From Paenibacillus taiwanensis DSM 18679 (lineage in GTDB: Bacteria; Bacillota; Bacilli; Paenibacillales; Paenibacillaceae): a DNA stretch of 64,000 nt. The stretch covers positions 796,966-860,965 of the forward strand of contig NZ_KE384307.1 of assembly GCF_000425125.1 (NCBI RefSeq), read 5' to 3'. The position numbers and the translations under genes were made by a program. The notes under the pieces are model-generated. The model made no database searches. It worked only from the letters and a program-made list of their open reading frames with translations, and was not told where the DNA came from. Numbering within the stretch: the stretch's first letter is position 1; every line of letters begins with the position of its first letter. Below, in pieces: positions 10,852-36,396 of the stretch.

Positions 10852-10955
10852 GAACCCACGACCTGCGAGAACTAACGTACCTGCATATAGGATAAGCATC
10901 CCTTTTATAGATATGTACAGATGAACTGACCATGGGGGTAAAGGAGCTAACGGCA

Positions 10956-12692
10956 ATGGCAAACAAATATAAGGTAGAGCCAATCGGCGGACCACCAAGT
11001 GACGTAGAGGAACTAAAAAAGGAGAGCAACTATTTACGAGGCTCGTTGACTGAATCACTCTCCAATCGGATCACTGGCGGCTTGCCGGAGTTGGACAATC
11101 GACTGCTTAAATTCCACGGCAGTTATATGCAGGATGATCGCGACTACCGCAACGAGCGGCAGAAGCAGAAGCTAGAGCCGTATTTTCAGTTTATGCTTCG
11201 TGTAGTTACACCAGGAGGTGTATCTACACCGGCACAATGGCTCGTTATGGATGAATTGGCTGATAAATACGGCACGGGCAGTATCCGTTTGACAACACGG
11301 CAAGCATTTCAGCTGCATGGTGTATTAAAATGGAATTTGAAAAAAACGATCCAAGAAATCAATGAAGCGCTGCTCACTACGCTTGCTGCTTGTGGTGACG
11401 TCAGCCGTAACGTCATGTGCAATCCGAACCCTTACCAATCGGACATTCACAGCGAGATTTATTACTGGGCGCAGCAGTTAACTTCCCATTTGGCTCCTAA
11501 AACACCTGCTTACCATGAAATTTGGCTGGACGAGGAGAAGATTGTAGATAGCCTGGAAACTAACGATGAAGCCGTTGAGGTAGAACCGATTTACGGGCCT
11601 GTCTACTTGCCGCGAAAGTTTAAGATCGGTATTGCGGTGCCTCCCTCCAATGACGTCGACATTTATTCACAGGATCTAGGGTTTATCGCCATTGTGGAAG
11701 ACGGTAAGCTGGTTGGCTTTAACGTTAGTGTTGGCGGTGGCATGGGCATGACACATGGTGATACGGCTACGTATCCGCAGCTTGCCCGCGTTATTGGCTT
11801 TGTCACGGCTGATCGCATTTTGGAGCTGGCAGAGAAGGTCGTTACGATCCAACGTGATTATGGTAATCGCTCTGTGCGGAAAAATGCACGCTTCAAATAT
11901 ACGATTGATCGGCACGGTCTGGACTGGTTTGTGAGCGAATTGCATGATCGATTAGGCTGGGAGCTGGCACCTGCCCGCACGTTTAAGTTTGATCATACAG
12001 GGGACCGCTACGGCTGGATTAAAGGCAAAGACAATCGATGGAACTTGACGCTGTACATTCAAAGCGGCCGTATCGTAGATACTGAAGGTTACAAGCTTAG
12101 AACGGCGTTGCGTGAAATTGCCAAAATACACACCGGCGATTTCCGGCTGACAGCGAATCAGAACTTGGTTATTGCGAACGTAACTAGTCAGAAAAAGACA
12201 GCAATTGTGGCTTTATTGAAGGAGTATAGTATTACAGAGGGCGCTCAATATTCAGCGCTGCGTCGAAGCTCGTTATCCTGTGTAGCACTGCCGACTTGCG
12301 GTTTGGCAATGGCAGAGGCAGAGCGTTATTTACCATCGCTAATCGATAAGCTAGAGCCGATCCTTGAGCAAGCAGGTTTGCGTGATGAAGAGATTAACAT
12401 TCGTATGACAGGCTGTCCGAATGGCTGCGCGCGCCCTGCTTTAGGAGAGATTGCCTTTATCGGCAAATCGCCTGGCAAGTATAACATGTATATGGGAGCA
12501 GGCTTCTCCGGTGATCGTATGAGCAAGTTATATCGGGAAAATATCGGAGAAGATGAAATCGTTGATACGTTAAAACCGATCATTAATCATTATGCGGCTG
12601 AGCGCAGCCAAGGCGAGCACTTTGGCGACTTTGTCATCCGTGCCGGCTATGTAAAACCGGTAACGGACGGCACAAATTTTCACGATGCTTAA
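10956..12692 (+). CDS. cysI: Sulfite reductase hemoprotein subunit (CysI)
   Basis: A 578-residue siroheme/[4Fe-4S] subunit that reduces sulfite to sulfide in the cytoplasm. The cluster ligands are C442 and C448 in [10 protein letters not shown] and C487 and C491 in [10 protein letters not shown], with the spacing seen in E. coli CysI. ATG 10956 is preferred over ATG 10932 because AAAGGAG (10939-10945) lies between them. It is co-transcribed with cysJ and a strong hairpin follows. Confidence 0.96.
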
Positions 12693-12807: not shown

Positions 12808-12886
12808 ACTATAATGAGGAGACATGTTAAATGACATAAGTAGAGTAGGACTAGGTGATGATTTTGATCGGGGTGAACATAAAGGT

Positions 12887-14878
12887 ATGCAATTAAATGA
12901 TCACATCGTGCTTTGGAATCATGTGTTTATAAAAGTAATGGATGTACGTCACGAGACTTTGTCTAGAGATAAAGAATTACGAAATTATCGGCTGCCGACC
13001 AGTGCATTTTTGTATTCCATACGTGGAAATGCCCAGATTTGGCTGGACCAGCTCGTGCACAACGTATCACGATTTCATGTGCTGCACGGTGGAAAGGGGA
13101 TGTGCTTAAACATCGTCGTGGAGGATGAGCTCGAATATTATATCGTTCTGTATAAGGCAATTCTTGCTTTGCCCACCACAAGGGACATTCAACAACTGCT
13201 GGAGAGTGAAAATCCATTTCAAAGCCAATATGCTTTTGCACCACATCAACCATTATCCTTATATGATAAAGTAGAGCTGTTAGAGCAACAATGGCGTCAG
13301 TCAACGGGATTGGGGAACATTCATGTTAAAGCTTTGCTCTATCAGTTTGTGTACGAGTTATTAGCACAGCTTCATTCTCAAGGGATTCAGCCCCTTAAGC
13401 CGGACTTAATGGCGCAAGCAGCTGCTTACATGCGCGAGCACTACAGTCAGCCCCTTACATTGGAGTCCATTGCAGAACAATTGGGATGCAGTGCAGGCCA
13501 CCTGTCCCGAACGTTTAAGAAACATATGCATACGAGCCCGATCCATTTTCTCGGTCAAGTTCGCGCCGAAAGAACGATGCAACTGCTAATGCAAACAGAT
13601 GCGACATTGCAGGAAATTGCGGAGTGGGTAGGTTATCCGGATGCGCATTCATTAAGCCGCAGTTTCAAAAAGTACATCGGATTATCTCCCGTTCGTTATA
13701 AAAAAGAACGTTTGAAACAGCCTTGGAATCAAGATTTGCCCATGACCCTGCTAACATCTGCCGTTCAACAGAAGCCGTCTCGACTTTATAATGATATTGA
13801 TTATCAATATCATTATAGTACGAGAGGAGATATACACATGCAAGGCAGAATTAGAGTAACGGCAATGACGGTGATGCTCTGCTTATCGTTGCTGCTGACA
13901 GCATGTTCAGCACAAGTCAATCCAACAGGAGGCACGCAAGCGGAAGCGAACCAAACGACGGCTCCTGCTGCTAGTGAGAAGTCAAATGGTGATGGACAAG
14001 CTGGCGTGCAAGCCAAAACAAGAACGATTTCGACGCTAAAAGGGGATGTGGAAATACCAGCAGAACCAAAGCGGGTAGTTTCGGATCAGTATATGGGTCA
14101 TTTGTTAAAGCTGGGTGTTATTCCTGTCGGCGTTAGAAGCTTTATGCTTAGTGAGGCATGGATAGAGAAAGCGGGCATTTCCAAAGATATCATTGCAGGA
14201 ATTGAGGATCTGGGCGGTTTTCCCATGAATTTAGAAAAATTAACGTATTTGGAGCCTGACTTAATTATAGGTTCGATAGAAAAAAATATTGAGGATTACC
14301 AGAAGATTGGGAAGACGGTGTTCCTTCCTTATTGGGAAGGTCTTTCTACGGCTGGACCGTTAGAGAAATTCCGCCGAATCAGTGAAATTTTCGGAAAAGA
14401 ACAACAAGCTGAGCAGTGGATAATGGAATACAAGCAAAATGTAGAAACAGCCAAAAAGAAAATTGCGGGGATTATAAAGGAAGGTGAAACGGTTTCTATC
14501 GTACAAGTAGCTAACAAAAATTTGTACGTATTAGCGGCGGAGGGCGGCAACTATGGTAGTTCAACCATCTATGAGATGCTGGGGCTCCCCCCTACGAAAA
14601 AAGCGTTAGAAATGAAAGAAGGTTTTGAGAGCATATCACTGGAAGTGCTGCCAGAGTATACAGGCGATCATATATTTGTATATGGTTCCCATGATGAGGG
14701 GGCGAACGAGGTGTTAAATAGCGGTATATGGAAGGGGATTCCTGCCGTGAAGAAGGGCAACATCTATATGTACGGTTCATTTGACGATAAAGGCGATGAA
14801 TTTGTAATGGAAGATCCTTATTCGCTTGAGCTTCAGTTGGATTCGATTGTAAACTTATTGTTAGCTAAAAAGAAATAA
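12887..14878 (+). CDS. AraC-type regulator reading in frame into a siderophore-binding lipoprotein
   Basis: One uninterrupted frame joins two proteins. The first about 300 residues are a YbbB/Btr-like AraC regulator: an N-terminal sensing domain (MQLNDHIVLWNH...), then two helix-turn-helix motifs (TLESIAEQLGCSAGHLSRTF and TLQEIAEWVGYPDAHSLSRS). The rest, from ATG 13838, is a FecB/FhuD-like binding protein with its own lipoprotein signal. Translated whole from ATG 12887 it has 663 residues; ATG 12824 adds 21 but has GAGGAG only 2 bases away. Btr-type regulators carrying a FecB-like sensor domain are known, but they lack an internal secretion signal. Either this is a true fusion or a stop between two genes has been lost. 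Iron and siderophore control is indicated by two Fur boxes. Confidence 0.75.
   Translation: MQLNDHIVLWNHVFIKVMDVRHETLSRDKELRNYRLPTSAFLYSIRGNAQIWLDQLVHNVSRFHVLHGGKGMCLNIVVEDELEYYIVLYKAILALPTTRDIQQLLESENPFQSQYAFAPHQPLSLYDKVELLEQQWRQSTGLGNIHVKALLYQFVYELLAQLHSQGIQPLKPDLMAQAAAYMREHYSQPLTLESIAEQLGCSAGHLSRTFKKHMHTSPIHFLGQVRAERTMQLLMQTDATLQEIAEWVGYPDAHSLSRSFKKYIGLSPVRYKKERLKQPWNQDLPMTLLTSAVQQKPSRLYNDIDYQYHYSTRGDIHMQGRIRVTAMTVMLCLSLLLTACSAQVNPTGGTQAEANQTTAPAASEKSNGDGQAGVQAKTRTISTLKGDVEIPAEPKRVVSDQYMGHLLKLGVIPVGVRSFMLSEAWIEKAGISKDIIAGIEDLGGFPMNLEKLTYLEPDLIIGSIEKNIEDYQKIGKTVFLPYWEGLSTAGPLEKFRRISEIFGKEQQAEQWIMEYKQNVETAKKKIAGIIKEGETVSIVQVANKNLYVLAAEGGNYGSSTIYEMLGLPPTKKALEMKEGFESISLEVLPEYTGDHIFVYGSHDEGANEVLNSGIWKGIPAVKKGNIYMYGSFDDKGDEFVMEDPYSLELQLDSIVNLLLAKKK
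13787..13817. promoter_or_regulatory. 31-bp perfect palindrome, overlapping Fur boxes inside the reading frame
   Basis: Bases 13787-13801 are the exact reverse complement of 13803-13817, around T13802. The stretch contains TGATATTGATTATCA (13792-13806), one mismatch from the Fur 7-1-7 consensus, and the mirror copy on the other strand. Its first six bases are TATAAT. It lies 20 bp before the internal ATG 13838 of the lipoprotein, exactly where the operator of an independent gene would be. Confidence 0.85.
13838..14878 (+). CDS. Iron-siderophore ABC transporter substrate-binding lipoprotein (internal start)
   Basis: A 346-residue protein if translated from ATG 13838, which follows GAGAGGAG at good spacing. 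It has a classic lipoprotein signal with lipobox LLTAC near residue 27, a low-complexity tether, then a FecB/FhuD-type type III binding fold (PKRVVSDQYMGHLLKLGVIPVG..., LEPDLIIGS, ENPYSLE-like ending). It would bind a ferric siderophore at the membrane surface for an FhuB/G-type permease not present here. It shares its frame with the AraC gene above, with no stop in between. The strong internal ribosome site, signal peptide and Fur palindrome argue it is made as a separate protein. Confidence 0.8.
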   Translation: MQGRIRVTAMTVMLCLSLLLTACSAQVNPTGGTQAEANQTTAPAASEKSNGDGQAGVQAKTRTISTLKGDVEIPAEPKRVVSDQYMGHLLKLGVIPVGVRSFMLSEAWIEKAGISKDIIAGIEDLGGFPMNLEKLTYLEPDLIIGSIEKNIEDYQKIGKTVFLPYWEGLSTAGPLEKFRRISEIFGKEQQAEQWIMEYKQNVETAKKKIAGIIKEGETVSIVQVANKNLYVLAAEGGNYGSSTIYEMLGLPPTKKALEMKEGFESISLEVLPEYTGDHIFVYGSHDEGANEVLNSGIWKGIPAVKKGNIYMYGSFDDKGDEFVMEDPYSLELQLDSIVNLLLAKKK

Positions 14879-28647: not shown

Positions 28648-30465
28648 TTACTTTACGCTTGCTTTGTATTTATCCAAATACTCTTTTGCTTTAGCAGGAT
28701 CTGCTTTTAGCTCATTGCCTGTAGTAACGAGCGGGCTTACGGTAGAGACAGCTTTAAACTTATTATTGTTATAGAATTGCAAGAATTCGTCTTGATTAAT
28801 AGAATATAGAACAGCTTTTCTTAAATCCTCGTTTTTTGCAATGTCGCGTTTACCCGTATTAAACAACAAGTAAGACACGGCATTACTTGGCAACGTTTGA
28901 AGAGCTAGCTTGGAGTCGCCTTTTACAAGATCAAACTTCGTTTCAGGTACGCCGTAATAAACATGAATTTCGCCACTGCGCAGCGCGGACAACGCACTGT
29001 CGGTATCCTTTATGAAGCGAAGCTTGATGTTTGTAATTTTCGGTTCGTGAGCTGTCCCTTTCATGTAGCCAGGATTTTTAATGAATACAGCTTCATAATC
29101 ATTTTTGTACGATAAAATGTAAGGTCCGCTTGCATACAAAGTGTTATTGTATTTGTTTCCTTCGGTTACTGTATTTTGATCGCCATAAGGGATATCTTTG
29201 TTGACATCAAATTTAGCTACGTCATACGTATTGATGCTCTCGACTTGCTTTTTGGATACGATGCCTCCCGATTGGTGAGCAAGATAATTCAGCACTTGCG
29301 GGAATGGCGCAGTTGTCGTCAACTTAATGACTTGATATTTACCGTCTTTGCTGCTAGCTTTGGTCTTGTCTGCGACAAGCTCTTTAATAGGGGTTTCAAG
29401 TCCTTTTTCCAATCCGGCTTTGATCGTTTCAGTGCTTCCAGACTGCTTAATTGCTTCTAGTGATTTGAGGTCTGTGATAGCCTCAACGTTTTTAATATGT
29501 TCGTGCAAGCTGTACGTACGGTGGTCAGGCACTGAATTTTTGTCTTTAGCACGATTAAGTGAGAAGATCACATCATCTGCTCCGACACGCTCTTTCGTAT
29601 CTACTGCAGCTTTGTTTGTCACTTTTGCAAAATGAATATCATCTCTTAATACAAAGTAGTATTCGGAGTTGCCTTCTGCAATGGAATGATTGTAAGACAG
29701 GGAGCCGTCGGTCGTAATCTTGTCATCGTCAGTCAAGTTTAACAGGCGAACGTACATATTTGTATTTATCATGTTGATGGAACCGTCATTGCCTTTGATT
29801 GGATCAAGTGAAGTCAACACGGGATTTGCTTGTGTCAACAGCAACGGATCGGTCGTACGTTTGGACTTGTCTTTGAAGTCAATATTTTCCCACACCAGGG
29901 AACGTGATTTCGACAGGCGCACAGAATCTTTGTCCAGCACTTCTTGATTAAGGCCTTGTGATTTTAATGAACTGTATAAAGGTGCGATATACGCTTTATC
30001 AAATACGAGCTTTTGTTCTAATTGCTTGTACGTGTCTACAAATTGCTCTGGTGTTTGTGTGGATGCTTGATCAATCAACGTGTCGAGCTCGGGATCAGCT
30101 ATGATGCTGTAGTCTCCGCCCGTCTTAAACAATGATCTTACAGCATAATCCGGATTTCCAGTTACGGTAGTCCAGCTAGTGAGGGACACGTCATAGTTGC
30201 CTGCCTCTTCTTGTGCTTTGTAGCTGCCGTAATCAGGCTGAATGTTTAACTTGACGTTAAACCCGTTTTTGGTTAACTGATCTCGAATGATGTTAAGGTC
30301 AGATTCGCCAGTGCTCATGCCAAGCAGTTCAATCGTAACGGCACTTTTGTTGTTTGCATCCTGTGAAGGAGGGTTTTCGACGACATCTTTCTTGGTGTTA
30401 ACCTGGCATCCGCTCATGACGACCGCAAAGGCGATTAATAATAGGAACCATGGACTTTTTTTCAT
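28648..30465 (-). CDS. Peptide/nickel-type ABC transporter binding lipoprotein, circularly permuted SBP_bac_5
   Basis: A 605-residue lipoprotein (lipobox VMSGC, C20). Its two halves are in reversed order compared with DppA/OppA. Residues about 42-197 match the normal C-terminal part (LGM...QLTKNGFNVKLNI, YDVSLTSW, GNPDYAVRSLF, YKQLEQKL, APLYSS, RSLVWENIDF). Residues about 204-605 match the normal N-terminal part (TQANPVLTSLDP, ADDVIFSLNRAKD, ASGPYILSYKNDYEAVFIKNPGY, DLRKAVLYSINQDEF) and end at ADPAKAKEYLDKY, where DppA would continue into its C-terminal part. AGGAGG precedes ATG 30465. It is last in the operon after two permeases. The substrate is unknown; peptides are most likely. Confidence 0.85.
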   Translation of the reverse strand: MKKSPWFLLLIAFAVVMSGCQVNTKKDVVENPPSQDANNKSAVTIELLGMSTGESDLNIIRDQLTKNGFNVKLNIQPDYGSYKAQEEAGNYDVSLTSWTTVTGNPDYAVRSLFKTGGDYSIIADPELDTLIDQASTQTPEQFVDTYKQLEQKLVFDKAYIAPLYSSLKSQGLNQEVLDKDSVRLSKSRSLVWENIDFKDKSKRTTDPLLLTQANPVLTSLDPIKGNDGSINMINTNMYVRLLNLTDDDKITTDGSLSYNHSIAEGNSEYYFVLRDDIHFAKVTNKAAVDTKERVGADDVIFSLNRAKDKNSVPDHRTYSLHEHIKNVEAITDLKSLEAIKQSGSTETIKAGLEKGLETPIKELVADKTKASSKDGKYQVIKLTTTAPFPQVLNYLAHQSGGIVSKKQVESINTYDVAKFDVNKDIPYGDQNTVTEGNKYNNTLYASGPYILSYKNDYEAVFIKNPGYMKGTAHEPKITNIKLRFIKDTDSALSALRSGEIHVYYGVPETKFDLVKGDSKLALQTLPSNAVSYLLFNTGKRDIAKNEDLRKAVLYSINQDEFLQFYNNNKFKAVSTVSPLVTTGNELKADPAKAKEYLDKYKASVK

Positions 30466-30541: not shown

Positions 30542-32050
30542 TTAATCCAGTTTAGGGTCAAGTGCGTCCCGCAAGCCGTCCCCAAGGAAGTTAAAGGACA
30601 AGACTAGCATAATGATGGCTAGACCCGGATAGATGGCCAGGTAGGAGTGAGACTCCAAATAAGCACTGCCAATCTTCAAAATGTTGCCCCATTCCGGTAT
30701 TTGCGGTTCAACGCCTAGTCCTAGGAAGCTCAAGCTGCTAGTTGAAATAACAGCTGCACCGATTGTTAAGGTAGACTTGACAATCATAGGAGCTAGCGAG
30801 TTAGGCACGATATGTTTAAAAATGATTGACCAGTTGCTAGAGCCAAATGCACGCGCTGCCTCGACAAACTCATACGTAGACACAAGCATAACGTTAGCAC
30901 GCATCGTTCGTGCATAAGAGGGGATCGCCCCAATACTAAGTGCCAGAATCAAATTTACGGTATTGGCACCAAAGGCTGCGATGATAGCAATCGCAAGCAA
31001 AATGCCAGGAATGGCGTATAAAATGTCCAGTAGACGCATAATGATGTTGTCTGTTCGACGTCCGTAATAACCTGCCAATGCGCCGAGTACACCACCTATA
31101 ACGACTGGAATGGCGGTGGATAGTAGACCAACAACCAAGGAGATGCGAGCACCGAAAATAATACGCGAAAACAAGCATCTGCCAAAATTGTCTGTGCCAA
31201 AAGGATAAGCCAAGCTAGGCTGCTGTAATATAGCACCATAGTTGTTATCAATGGCAAGTGCATAATCAAATGTTAAATAACTGCATATAGAGATGGAGAA
31301 CAAAAACACGATAAAAAATAAGCCAATCATCGAGGTTGTACTCCGTGTTAATCGTTCGAGCACCGTTTCCCACTTGCTAGTAGATAGATAGTTTGCTTTC
31401 CGAAGCTTGGCGAGCAGCGTCAGGGCTAGCAGCAGCGCAAACAAGTTGCCTGTAATCGATGTTAGTATAAGTATATAGGCGATAACACGCATACGTGGAT
31501 GAGCACGCTCGCTGCTTACATACTTGGCGACGATCATAAGGGTGATCAAGTAAAAAACGGCCAAAATGACTAGTACAAACATCGCAGGCAAAAATGTATC
31601 CGTCACATAAGGCTTAAATAAATTGAGGCCTGATGCAGCGATAATGAATAGCTGCGTGAGCAGCATGTACACGGCTAACGTGTACTCAGCGCTTTTATGG
31701 CGCTTGATAAGCCCGAAAGCTGCGGTCGCGATAAACACGTTGCCAGTTGCGATGCTGAACAACTGAATATAGCCAAGTGCTCGGGTTTTTCCCCGAATGT
31801 GGCCAAATCGTATAAGGTCACGCCGAATCAAGAGGACAACCATAAACTGAATGACCGTAAACAAGGCGTATACGACAAAACCGATAAATACGTAAGGCTT
31901 ACTGATTTGCTCGGTAAGGCTATAGCTGTTCAACAGCAATAAGATGGACAGCACCAGGGATACAATCCAAGCCAGGTTGGCCTGGCTATATTCAGGTGAT
32001 GTCTTTAATCGATAGCTCAACTCTTGGGTGTGAATTTGCTTCTTTGTCAT
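30542..32050 (-). CDS. DppC-type ABC permease with extra N-terminal membrane domain
   Basis: A 502-residue permease. The C-terminal 270 residues are a normal DppC/OppC permease: PFGTDNFGRCLFSRIIFGARISL, the EAA loop VEAARAFGSSNWSIIFKHIVPN, and SFLGLGVEPQIPEWGNIL. The first about 225 residues are an added domain with about six membrane spans and are not part of the usual 300-residue family; I recognise no family for it. The stop lies 76 bp before the binding-protein start, and the start lies 14 bp after the other permease, so this is one operon. Confidence 0.88.
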   Translation of the reverse strand: MTKKQIHTQELSYRLKTSPEYSQANLAWIVSLVLSILLLLNSYSLTEQISKPYVFIGFVVYALFTVIQFMVVLLIRRDLIRFGHIRGKTRALGYIQLFSIATGNVFIATAAFGLIKRHKSAEYTLAVYMLLTQLFIIAASGLNLFKPYVTDTFLPAMFVLVILAVFYLITLMIVAKYVSSERAHPRMRVIAYILILTSITGNLFALLLALTLLAKLRKANYLSTSKWETVLERLTRSTTSMIGLFFIVFLFSISICSYLTFDYALAIDNNYGAILQQPSLAYPFGTDNFGRCLFSRIIFGARISLVVGLLSTAIPVVIGGVLGALAGYYGRRTDNIIMRLLDILYAIPGILLAIAIIAAFGANTVNLILALSIGAIPSYARTMRANVMLVSTYEFVEAARAFGSSNWSIIFKHIVPNSLAPMIVKSTLTIGAAVISTSSLSFLGLGVEPQIPEWGNILKIGSAYLESHSYLAIYPGLAIIMLVLSFNFLGDGLRDALDPKLD

Positions 32051-32063
32051 ATCGACACCTGCT

Positions 32064-33506
32064 TTAGTATTGTTTCATCTTGGACCGGATACGAGGGTCG
32101 AAGAAGGCATAAAGAATGTCTATCACAACATTAATGAGTGATATCGTAATCGCAGTATAAATGACGCCGCCCATAATACTCGGAATATCGGGAATAAACT
32201 GCTTGTCCACAATATAACTACCGATACCGCTAATGTTAAACACCTTCTCTGTCACAGCAGATCCTCCCAGCATGCCTCCAAACTGAAGGCCAATAACTGT
32301 AATGATCGGAATAAGCGCATTACCAACGGCGTGTTTACGCAAAATTTGGCGTTTGCTAAGCCCTTTTGCTTTAGCCGTGATGATGTAATCTTCATTAATG
32401 ACTTCGAGTGTTGAAGATCGTGTCATTCTAGCAACGGCGGCTGTTAAGCCTGTACCAAGAACAATCGTTGGCATAATCATCGACAGCCAGTTTTGCGGAT
32501 TGTAAGTGGCAGGCAGCCAGTGCAGCTTGATAGAAAAATTAAGAATAAAAACAAGCCCTTGCCAAAAGCTGGGTATCGATAACCCGAGAAGTGCGATAAA
32601 CATAAAGGTATAATCATAAATCGAATTAGGCTTGACCGCCGATATAATGCCGATAGGCAAGGCGATGATGATTGCCATTAATAGCGAGATCAAGGTTAGC
32701 GTAAGTGTGACAGGAAATTTACCAGCAATGGCTGTAGTTACTTCTTCATTGCCGGCAAATGATTTGCCGAGATCAAACGTTGCAATTCCTTTCAGAGTAT
32801 TCCCTAGCTGAACGAGGTAGGGCTGATCTAAACCGTATAACCGGTTAAAAGATTCAATTTGTTCTGTCGTTGCCGTTTCTCCTAAAATGTTAGCTGCCGG
32901 ATTCATCGGAGAAATATAGAGAATCGAGAACACAAGGAATGCGACACCAAATATAACAAATACACTCATCAACAGCCGCTCTACTATATATTTGAGATAA
33001 GGGCTGCTAAATATTAGAATCAAGGCGTACATGAAGGCTCCAGGTACAAACGATATCGCAACAAAAAGCGGACTCTCGAGCAGGTGTTGAAACGCTGCTC
33101 CATAAGTGAGTCTTTGTTGGCTGCGCTGCCGCAACTGTGTCATCGTCTGCTCATGTGCTTCGGCTTGGAGCTGCGCTGCTGCAATAGCTGCAACTTGCCG
33201 TTCAAGCACCTGCGGCTCCATTTGCTCCTGAAAAAACCGATGCTTCCGTATTTGCTGGTCCCGAATATCTTCTATAAGTCTGTCGTAATACCCTGAGGCA
33301 AGCAACGCTTGCTTAGTTTGATCTAAAGCAAGAGCATAGGGATCGTTTTTGCGTTCACGCCAGTAATATAAATATACGAATATGTGAACAGGTGCTCCTA
33401 GCAGTAGGACAAGCACTCTGTATGTCGGATTCAGCATCATTTTGCCGTATGCAGCGGCAAGCTTTTGGAGTAAGCCCCACCGGGGCGTTGATGCGGATAC
33501 TTCCAT
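32064..33506 (-). CDS. DppB-type ABC permease with extra N-terminal domain
   Basis: A 480-residue permease. From about residue 170 it is a normal DppB/OppB protein (YLKYIVERLLMSVFVIFGVA, GLDQPYLVQ, FDLGKSF, the EAA-like loop IITAKAKGLSKRQILRKHAVGNALIP, and FNISGIGSYIVD). The first 165 residues add a membrane span (about 28-49), a long charged Gln/Arg-rich, probably coiled segment (about 50-140) and a second span (about 146-168). First gene of the leftward operon; a promoter lies upstream at 33562-33590. Confidence 0.88.
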   Translation of the reverse strand: MEVSASTPRWGLLQKLAAAYGKMMLNPTYRVLVLLLGAPVHIFVYLYYWRERKNDPYALALDQTKQALLASGYYDRLIEDIRDQQIRKHRFFQEQMEPQVLERQVAAIAAAQLQAEAHEQTMTQLRQRSQQRLTYGAAFQHLLESPLFVAISFVPGAFMYALILIFSSPYLKYIVERLLMSVFVIFGVAFLVFSILYISPMNPAANILGETATTEQIESFNRLYGLDQPYLVQLGNTLKGIATFDLGKSFAGNEEVTTAIAGKFPVTLTLTLISLLMAIIIALPIGIISAVKPNSIYDYTFMFIALLGLSIPSFWQGLVFILNFSIKLHWLPATYNPQNWLSMIMPTIVLGTGLTAAVARMTRSSTLEVINEDYIITAKAKGLSKRQILRKHAVGNALIPIITVIGLQFGGMLGGSAVTEKVFNISGIGSYIVDKQFIPDIPSIMGGVIYTAITISLINVVIDILYAFFDPRIRSKMKQY

Positions 33507-33561
33507 GATCGTTCCCCCTCTCTCTATTTTTTAATTTGCATAATCCCGATCGATATAGTAG

Positions 33562-33590
33562 ATTTTATTTTAGAGTTCGTAAAAAGTCAA
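33562..33590 (-). promoter_or_regulatory. Leftward promoter of the ABC importer operon
   Basis: On the minus strand: TTGACT (33590-33585), a 17-bp spacer and TAAAAT (33567-33562), about 55 bp before the DppB-type gene and in the divergent gap with the ATPase gene. Confidence 0.65.
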
Positions 33591-33639: not shown

Positions 33640-35394
33640 GTGGAAAAGACAGAAACGGTGGAGACGATATTAGAGGTTAACAATTTGAGCGTCTCTTTTC
33701 AGACTCGTGATCGGGAAGTCCAAGCCGTAAAAGGGGTTAGCTTTCAATTAAAAAGAGGAGAGACGTTAGGTATCGTAGGCGAATCTGGAAGTGGTAAAAG
33801 TGTAACTGCGCGTACAATTATGAGGTTGCTGCCATCGCCGCCTTCTTATGTGAAGTCGGGTGAAATTACATTTCTTGGACAGAACCTAGCCTATTTGACA
33901 GATAAACAAATGGAAGCAATTCGGGGTCGGGACATCGGAATGATCTTTCAGGATCCAATGACTTCCTTAAACCCGACGATGAAGATCGGCCGCCAGATTG
34001 CAGAAAGTTTGATCAAGCATCAGAAGTTATCTAAAAAAGAAGCGCGTCAACAAGCAGTAGAGATGTTGAAATTGGTAGGCATTCCGAACAGTGAGGCGCG
34101 ATATGATCAATATCCGCATGAGTTCTCAGGCGGGATGAGACAGCGGGTAATGATAGCGATCGCACTTGCCTGCCGCCCAGCACTGCTTATTGCTGATGAG
34201 CCGACTACAGCGCTAGATGTGACGATCCAAGCACAGATTTTGAATCAAATGAAGCTGATTCAGCAGCAAATCGGTACTTCTATTATTTTAATTACGCACG
34301 ATCTGGGTGTTGTGGCAGGTATGTGTGATCGTGTAGCGGTTATGAAAGACGGTGTAATCGTAGAAACAGGGACAACGGAGGACATTTTTTCGAATCCACA
34401 GCATCCATATACGTTAAAGCTGTTAAATGCGCTGCCACGTCTACATGAGCAGAAGAAACCGAAGCCTGCGCCGCTTATTTCCCCGGCAGCTGCTGACGAT
34501 CGACCGTTGCTGGAAGTCAGATCACTGAAGCGGCACTTTGATATGGGAAAAGGAAACGTGCTGAAAGCGGTCAACAATATTAGTTTCCATATTCATGCTG
34601 GCGAGACATTAGGTATTGTTGGGGAATCCGGGAGTGGGAAGTCAACGACAGGCCGCACTATTTTGCGTCTGCATGAGCCAACAGGAGGAGACGTGCTTTA
34701 CAAAGGAATCTCGATTAACCGCTTGACGTTATCAGAGATGAAGGTGATGCGTCGGAATATGCAGATGATTTTCCAAGATCCGTATGCATCGCTTAATCCT
34801 CGCTTCAGAGTGCTCGATATAATCGGTGAAGCGCTTGATGTCCATAAGCTGGTCGCAACTCCTCAGCAGCGTCAGAAGCGTGTGGAGGAACTGCTTGACA
34901 TGGTCGGATTAGATTCAGCTATGGCCATGCGTTATCCGCACGAATTTTCAGGAGGACAGCGGCAGCGGATCGGGATAGCACGCGCACTGGCGGTGGAGCC
35001 GGAATTTATCGTGTGTGACGAGCCGCTATCAGCGCTTGACGTATCTATACAGTCACAGATCGTGAAACTGTTGGAAGAGCTGCAGCACCGTCTGGGGCTA
35101 ACTTATATGTTTATTGCACACGACTTATCGATGGTGAAGCATATTAGTGATCGCGTTGCGGTTATGTATCGTGGCAAAATTGTGGAGCTTGCGGAATGTG
35201 AGGAATTGTACAGCAATCCACAGCACGATTACACCAAGTCGCTGCTTGCGGCAATTCCGATTCCAGATCCTAAAATTGAAGCCCAAAAAAAGCTCAAGGT
35301 GACGGAAGAATTGGCGGGGGAAGACAAGTATAACGTAGACAACTCTGAACTTGTGGAAGTTTCACAGGGGCATTGGGTTGCGATATCGTCTTAA
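33640..35394 (+). CDS. Fused two-domain ABC transporter ATPase (DppD-DppF/GsiA-like)
   Basis: A 584-residue cytoplasmic protein with two complete ABC domains. The first has GESGSGKSV (Walker A), SGGMRQR (signature) and LLIADEPTT (Walker B). The second has [16 protein letters not shown] and FIVCDEPLS. Each is followed by an oligopeptide-type C-terminal segment ([30 protein letters not shown]). In most Dpp/Opp systems these are two proteins; GsiA and YejF are known fusions. GTG 33640 follows GGTGGGTGATC. It is divergent from the permease operon and should power that importer. Confidence 0.95.
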
Positions 35395-35478: not shown

Positions 35479-36396
35479 TTATTGATGACCCTCTGCAATC
35501 GCTTTGTAAGCGGCTAAATCGGTGTATACTTCTACTTTCAGCGGGTTCCGTTTATGTTTCGTAATTTTGTAAATGTGGTAAACAAAAACGGCAATGTTAG
35601 CGATCAGGGAGATCGAGCTTACGACCCATAGAGCCGTTTCACTGTGCGAAGATTGCACGGCGAACATCGAATCTCCGACAAACATAGGGAACGACATCGT
35701 AAACATCATCCAAATGGCCAACGTATGCGCCCGATGCTGTAACCACGCACCTTTTTTCATAAAGAAAGCAGGAATCGTACAGGAAATTAGCAAGGCAGCA
35801 CCTGCATAGAAGGAGTGGTCCGACACACAGTTATACACATAGGCAAAGTTCCACAAATCATACGCAATAATCCAGAACCAGAGTTGATCAGGCCACAGCA
35901 TATCTTTATGTTTGTCTTTACTAATCACAATGCCCATCCAGCCCGAGATCGTAATGATATTCAAAATCCCTGCAATACCATTCATAATGTTCCAAGGACC
36001 GCCAATCATCATAACACCATCGATCATGCCGTTTAAGCCCGATACTTGGAAGTCACGAATGACAGCTTCCATAATGTTGATCGCCAGAATAACAGGCGGG
36101 AACATTAACAAGTATTTATTGTCGCTCCAGCCTTTTACATAACGAAGTGCCATAAAGCCAAGACATCCCGCTAACGCGGAGTACACTTTCACCCAATGGA
36201 ACCATGTCCCTGTACTGGAACCTTCACCAGCAGTTGTTGGCCAAACAGCGACAGTAAGCACTATTGGCAGGAACAAGAACAAGGTTAAGGCAATCCACTT
36301 GTTTAAGCGAGCTAACTCATTTACAAAAATTAAGCCACCCAACACGACAAGCCACATTAGTGCGGAATACCACGGTATGGATTCAAATAAAAACAT
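35479..36396 (-). CDS. Multi-pass membrane protein, DUF5692-like (paralogue of 3873-4706)
   Basis: A 305-residue integral membrane protein with about nine spans. It shares WFHWVKVYS and NIMEAVIRDF with WFRWAKILS and NIMEATIKDF of the gene at 3873-4706, and a similar WNFAYVY/WNFMYTTW segment. The function is unknown for both. GGGGAGGG precedes ATG 36396. It is convergent with the ATPase gene and has no evident partner. Confidence 0.75.
   Translation of the reverse strand: MFLFESIPWYSALMWLVVLGGLIFVNELARLNKWIALTLFLFLPIVLTVAVWPTTAGEGSSTGTWFHWVKVYSALAGCLGFMALRYVKGWSDNKYLLMFPPVILAINIMEAVIRDFQVSGLNGMIDGVMMIGGPWNIMNGIAGILNIITISGWMGIVISKDKHKDMLWPDQLWFWIIAYDLWNFAYVYNCVSDHSFYAGAALLISCTIPAFFMKKGAWLQHRAHTLAIWMMFTMSFPMFVGDSMFAVQSSHSETALWVVSSISLIANIAVFVYHIYKITKHKRNPLKVEVYTDLAAYKAIAEGHQ

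Follow-up and report, generated by a model that had tools for sequence, protein, structure and literature searches.

A circularly permuted SBP_bac_5 binding protein, probably of the GisD type, encoded in a conserved ABC importer locus of Paenibacillus

Introduction

The closest described counterpart of the locus analysed here is the GisABCD-Ggt system of Staphylococcus aureus, in which gisA is divergently oriented and gisBCD are operonic with ggt; transposon mutants in all five genes show impaired growth on GSH or GSSG as the sole sulphur source, and GisB and GisC are each predicted to contain nine transmembrane segments (PMC10355420). At high concentration, use of GSH by S. aureus is independent of Ggt (PMC10355420), and in a gisD mutant, use of GSH at higher concentrations depends on DtpT (PMC12510641). 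The main text of these two papers does not contain the word permutation in any form.

There is a precedent for permuted binding proteins in a different class: Tp0684 (TpMglB-2) of Treponema pallidum is a natural, conserved, circularly permuted binding protein of the sugar type (PMC4990184). For SBP_bac_5, the peptide/nickel class, we found no earlier report of a permuted member in the literature searched, which excludes most subscription journals. Here we describe such a protein encoded in a 64,000-nucleotide stretch of Paenibacillus DNA, hereafter the window. The initial annotation had stated that no described example was known in this family. We likewise found no report of the permutation itself; the family includes the functionally studied GisD of S. 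aureus.

Results

The two blocks of the binding protein are in swapped order

The gene for the binding protein (28648-30465, minus strand) is an uninterrupted open reading frame of 605 codons. The signal peptide and lipobox occupy residues 1-20 (30406-30465) and end at Cys20, which is invariant in the family. Residues 21-41 (30343-30405) form a tether that leads into the former C-terminal segment and is modelled with low confidence (pLDDT below 50 in residues 10-39). Residues 42-197 (29875-30342) are equivalent to DppA residues ~350-507, which are C-terminal in normal homologues; residues 198-205 (29851-29874) are a short linker from the former C-terminus to the former N-terminus; and residues 206-605 (28651-29850) are equivalent to DppA 1-343, that is, to the N-terminal and middle parts of normal homologues (VIA-align, 1dpp_A). 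The DppA/OppA motifs listed in the initial annotation are present in the order given there.

The protein scores 138.2 bits against SBP_bac_5 (PF00496; curated cut-off, 32.4). In a profile search of the whole genome, the canonical collinear order of the family was replaced in this protein by two swapped stretches, with PF00496 positions 301-366 matched near the N-terminus (E 8e-7) and positions 11-277 thereafter (E 1.7e-32), whereas the genome's nine other SBP_bac_5 proteins each matched as one collinear piece. The protein is thus a permuted relative rather than a canonical member of the family. Its lipoprotein signal and the neighbouring OppBCDF-type genes are both as in SBP_bac_5 systems. A phmmer search against the PDB gave the same arrangement, with query residues 57-162 aligned to chain positions ~360-490 and residues 219-598 to ~20-364 of DppA, HbpA/GbpA, GsiB and 5u4o.

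We compared a family alignment of 39 sequences with the nine normal binding proteins of the same genome using hhalign. The native order yielded two swapped matches (residues 203-599 on template positions 56-390 and residues 59-177 on 427-548), whereas rotation at residue 198-210 produced a single match spanning template positions 56-548, with a score of 221 compared to 161 for the native order. Cuts at residues 100, 300, 400 and 500 still left two pieces; a cut at 150 gave one main match, with a score below that of the 198-210 rotation. For a distant relative, rotation raised the HMM score from 47 to 100 bits, in one alignment over profile positions 49-529. When the rotated window protein was searched with phmmer, one stretch aligned to Yersinia pestis DppA 208-491 through the artificial seam, and the best single stretch scored 39.3 bits, against 22.1 and 8.1 bits for the two parts separately. 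The loop that follows the helix DPAKAKE(Y/L)L contains the seam; the new termini lie in the loop that connects the AKAKELL helix to the following strand, at about DppA 343-350.

Structure comparison is in line with these results. The window protein is predicted to have the same two-lobed clamp fold as its normal relatives. In its AlphaFold2 model (pLDDT 80.5, pTM 0.79), VIA-align superposed residues 206-605 on DppA (1dpp) 1-343 with Z 19.9 and an rmsd of 3.4 A over 323 residues. We found no GisD-like structure in the PDB by sequence. The initial annotation had raised the prospect that residues 42-197 are an unrelated domain; the profile of this segment instead matches the C-terminal part of SBP_bac_5 proteins in the PDB. 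The profile of residues 42-199 hit 5u4o 379-491 (E 1.4e-9), MppA 368-488 (E 2.2e-9) and 6npo 384-540 (E 3.6e-8); AppA, OppA and DppA were also matched, the matched range being ~364-540 overall. Folded alone, residues 42-199 gave a poor model (pLDDT 66) that had no Foldseek match at E <= 0.001 and mixed VIA-align results, with a few SBP_bac_5 chains aligned at the expected place; for this poor model, MppA 378-433 gave Z 5.7 (rmsd 1.4, 53 residues) and TM1226 376-511 gave Z 5.0 (rmsd 6.4, 99 residues).

Pfam, phmmer searches against the PDB, hhalign and structure comparison thus all recover the swapped order, there is no full-length collinear alignment in the native order, and rotation restores one. 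The proposal that this is a genuine circular permutation is thereby borne out, and we put the probability that the SBP_bac_5 fold is truly circularly permuted in this protein at about 0.97.

The permuted order and the gene neighbourhood are conserved

A search for homologues of the same order yielded 59 loci with full-length relatives at 70-95% identity, in named genomes of Paenibacillus, Bacillus, Brevibacillus, Cytobacillus and Neobacillus. All 59 share the permuted order, as do distant members at 41-48% identity, the lower limit (about 41%) being reached in Staphylococcaceae. The ATPase, the two permeases and the binding protein occur together at 59 of the 59 loci, and the fused ATPase is divergent at nearly all of them; at one exception, L062, what matches the ATPase is a gene of 326 aa that shares its strand with the permeases. 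Use of the permease C extension (see below) as a marker for the same system retrieved further members in Bacilli, all with a permuted binding protein (42-69% identity). A profile search of the class detected the permuted system in 35 of 399 genomes and 12 of 146 genera; among 398 genomes sampled from the phylum, matches at E 1e-60 were confined to the family of the window genome. G424 is a genome in which a gamma-glutamyl transpeptidase gene (named by eye from its sequence and the gis layout) lies directly downstream of the locus; within its family, the system is present in 12 of 101 genomes. A partial match to the binding protein in G810 resembled a split form but proved to be a deletion remnant, in which the C-terminal part of the ATPase adjoins that of the binding protein; at L150:7984-8827, outside the window genome, the ATPase C-terminus runs straight into the final 219 residues of the binding protein.

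An artefact of gene prediction, frameshift or assembly has a negligible probability: the open reading frame is single and unbroken, and the same order, with strong protein conservation, recurs in 59 other assemblies, so that chance, frameshift and misassembly are excluded. Recruitment of the N-terminal block from a different binding protein, fused to a protein missing its own C-terminal segment, is improbable, although much less so than an artefact. The available sequences cannot trace both blocks to one parent, and an origin of this kind was weighed for the permuted region of Tp0684 (PMC4990184); against it, both blocks match the same PDB proteins (5u4o, 3m8u, 1dpp and 1uqw), overlap little and are complementary. 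Under either origin, the topology is permuted.

Permeases, ATPase and other genes of the window

Upstream of the binding protein gene, on the same strand, are a GisC-type permease (30542-32050), with a DppC/GsiD-like core (30545-31378) and an N-terminal extension (31379-32050), and a GisB-type permease (32064-33506), with a DppB/Opp2B/GsiC-like core (32067-32996) and an N-terminal extension (32997-33506). A GisA-type fused double ATPase resembling GsiA and OppDF is encoded divergently (33640-35394, plus strand). The extension of the GisC-type permease comprises 224 aa with about six hydrophobic segments, and that of the GisB-type permease 170 aa; the NCBIfam permease models begin at residue 225 in the 502-aa protein, and at about residue 171 in the 480-aa one. 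Additional hydrophobic segments lie within the extensions; over the full length of the two permeases, a simple hydropathy scan counted 11 and 8. Both extensions are conserved, and neither matched Pfam or NCBIfam above the cut-off. The C extension (31379-32050) has two weakly similar halves of ~105 aa each, about one of which is missing from staphylococcal homologues. The best NCBIfam scores were to GsiA for the ATPase, GsiD for one permease and the Opp2B nickel model for permease B.

Elsewhere in the window, cysI, the gene for the hemoprotein of assimilatory sulphite reductase, lies at 10932-12692, and thus in the same stretch as the putative sulphur-peptide importer. A 684-aa open reading frame at 12824-14878 appears, by eye, to combine an AraC-type regulator region with a following region that resembles siderophore-binding proteins and has a lipoprotein-like signal of its own. 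A gene for a DUF5692 protein (35479-36396) adjoins the importer genes.

A conserved promoter and a candidate operator

The permease/binding protein operon is preceded by a sigma-70-type promoter, TTGACT-N17-TAAAAT (33562-33590, minus strand), that is conserved across loci. Just downstream of it is a conserved imperfect palindrome, ACTATATCgATCGGgATtATGCAAaTT (33533-33559, minus strand), which is recognisable in about 55 loci, occurs once in the window genome when up to 3 mismatches are allowed, and is probably an operator. A cysteine regulon acting through this palindrome was rejected because near-identical sites are restricted to this locus. Looser sites are about as frequent as those of a control pattern; one precedes an NtaA/DmoA-family monooxygenase gene (L163), and a weak site lies near a cysK gene, so that any tie of these sites to a cysteine regulon is suggestive at best. 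A cysteine-responsive repressor is a possible candidate regulator of the gis-type operon. A CodY box considered in the intergenic region scored no better than shuffled sequence, and an Rfam search gave no match.

Relationship to GisABCD of S. aureus

Over 159 residues, the dihydrofolate reductase of genome G640 shows 100% identity with PDB 2w9g, the S. aureus enzyme. Locus L119 of this genome comprises gisA on the minus strand followed by gisB, gisC, gisD and ggt on the plus strand, the same layout as published for gisABCD-ggt in S. aureus (PMC10355420). On the profile of normal binding proteins, residues 42-175 of the G640 protein correspond to positions 398-533 and residues 206-572 to positions 51-355; because the pieces are swapped, GisD of S. 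aureus is permuted as well. This permutation in the S. aureus glutathione importer appears not to have been described before.

The window system shares with GisABCD a divergent fused ATPase, two long permeases and a homologous permuted binding protein, in the same layout, with about 41% identity between the two binding proteins. Relative to the window system, permease C of Staphylococcus, S. aureus included, has an extension some 110 residues shorter. The window locus also differs in having no adjacent ggt, and no gamma-glutamyl transpeptidase gene was found in the window genome. As a member of the GisD family, the window protein probably serves an importer of glutathione or sulphur peptides as its GisD-type receptor; we consider it very likely to be the permuted, extracellular GisD-type receptor of a peptide/glutathione/nickel-type ABC importer.

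Discussion

Comparison with known binding proteins

Like the window protein, Tp0684 carries a lipid anchor and serves an ABC importer as a circularly permuted binding protein. It differs in its Type I/cluster B sugar-binding fold and unrelated cut point, the window protein being, from its sequence, of the three-domain peptide class. The best sequence and structural matches of the latter are all SBP_bac_5 proteins, and its sequence places it in this family. With E. coli DppA, OppA and GsiB (SBP_bac_5, cluster C), it agrees segment by segment in sequence, and in the predicted structure of residues 206-605; the order of segments differs, and judging from the cut position in the known domain layout of DppA and OppA, the lipid tether would be on lobe II.

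A possible mechanism and substrate

The permutation may have originated by duplication and fusion followed by trimming. In the permuted arrangement, the short linker connects the old N- and C-termini, which both belong to lobe I, and the new termini lie in a loop on the surface of lobe II. As a consequence, the lipid anchor would be attached to lobe II instead of lobe I. The receptor would otherwise act as a normal two-lobed clamp that captures a small peptide, closes and docks on the two permeases, with import presumably powered by the fused ATPase.

In Paenibacillus, glutathione, GSSG or another cysteine peptide is the most likely substrate, a reading that we favour with some reservation. 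Lack of Ggt in the window genome, and of ggt beside the locus, implies that the substrate may differ from that of S. aureus: use of glutathione would require a different peptidase, or a related cysteine peptide would be the one imported. DppA Asp408, which holds the peptide amino group, aligns with Val101 of the window protein, a residue invariant in both family alignments, so that canonical alpha-amino recognition is unlikely. A less probable alternative, although one that deserves serious attention, is that the same permuted receptor serves in Paenibacillus to import something other than glutathione, namely, an oligopeptide, an opine or a metal chelate. The missing Ggt would fit such a substrate, as would the Opp2B nickel model being the best match of permease B and the permuted family extending beyond the ggt-linked staphylococcal branch. 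Against this stand the synteny and homology with gis, the best matches of two subunits to GsiA and GsiD, and the Ggt-independent use of GSH at high concentration by S. aureus (PMC10355420), which indicates that Ggt is not obligatory.

A more tentative idea, which we consider rather doubtful, is that the long extensions of the permeases arose together with the permutation, as parts of one redesigned importer in which the extra transmembrane helices would hold or orient the receptor, an anchor on the other lobe altering how the receptor is seated on the translocator. If true, this would be a distinct architecture among peptide/glutathione ABC importers.

Implications

With the window protein and its relatives, one of the largest families of binding proteins includes a naturally occurring circular permutation that is stable across Bacillales. 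The permutation explains the poor scores of curated subfamily models on these proteins and calls for caution with homology models of GisD built in the canonical order. The permuted receptor also offers a natural test of whether the choice of the membrane-tethered lobe matters for ABC import.
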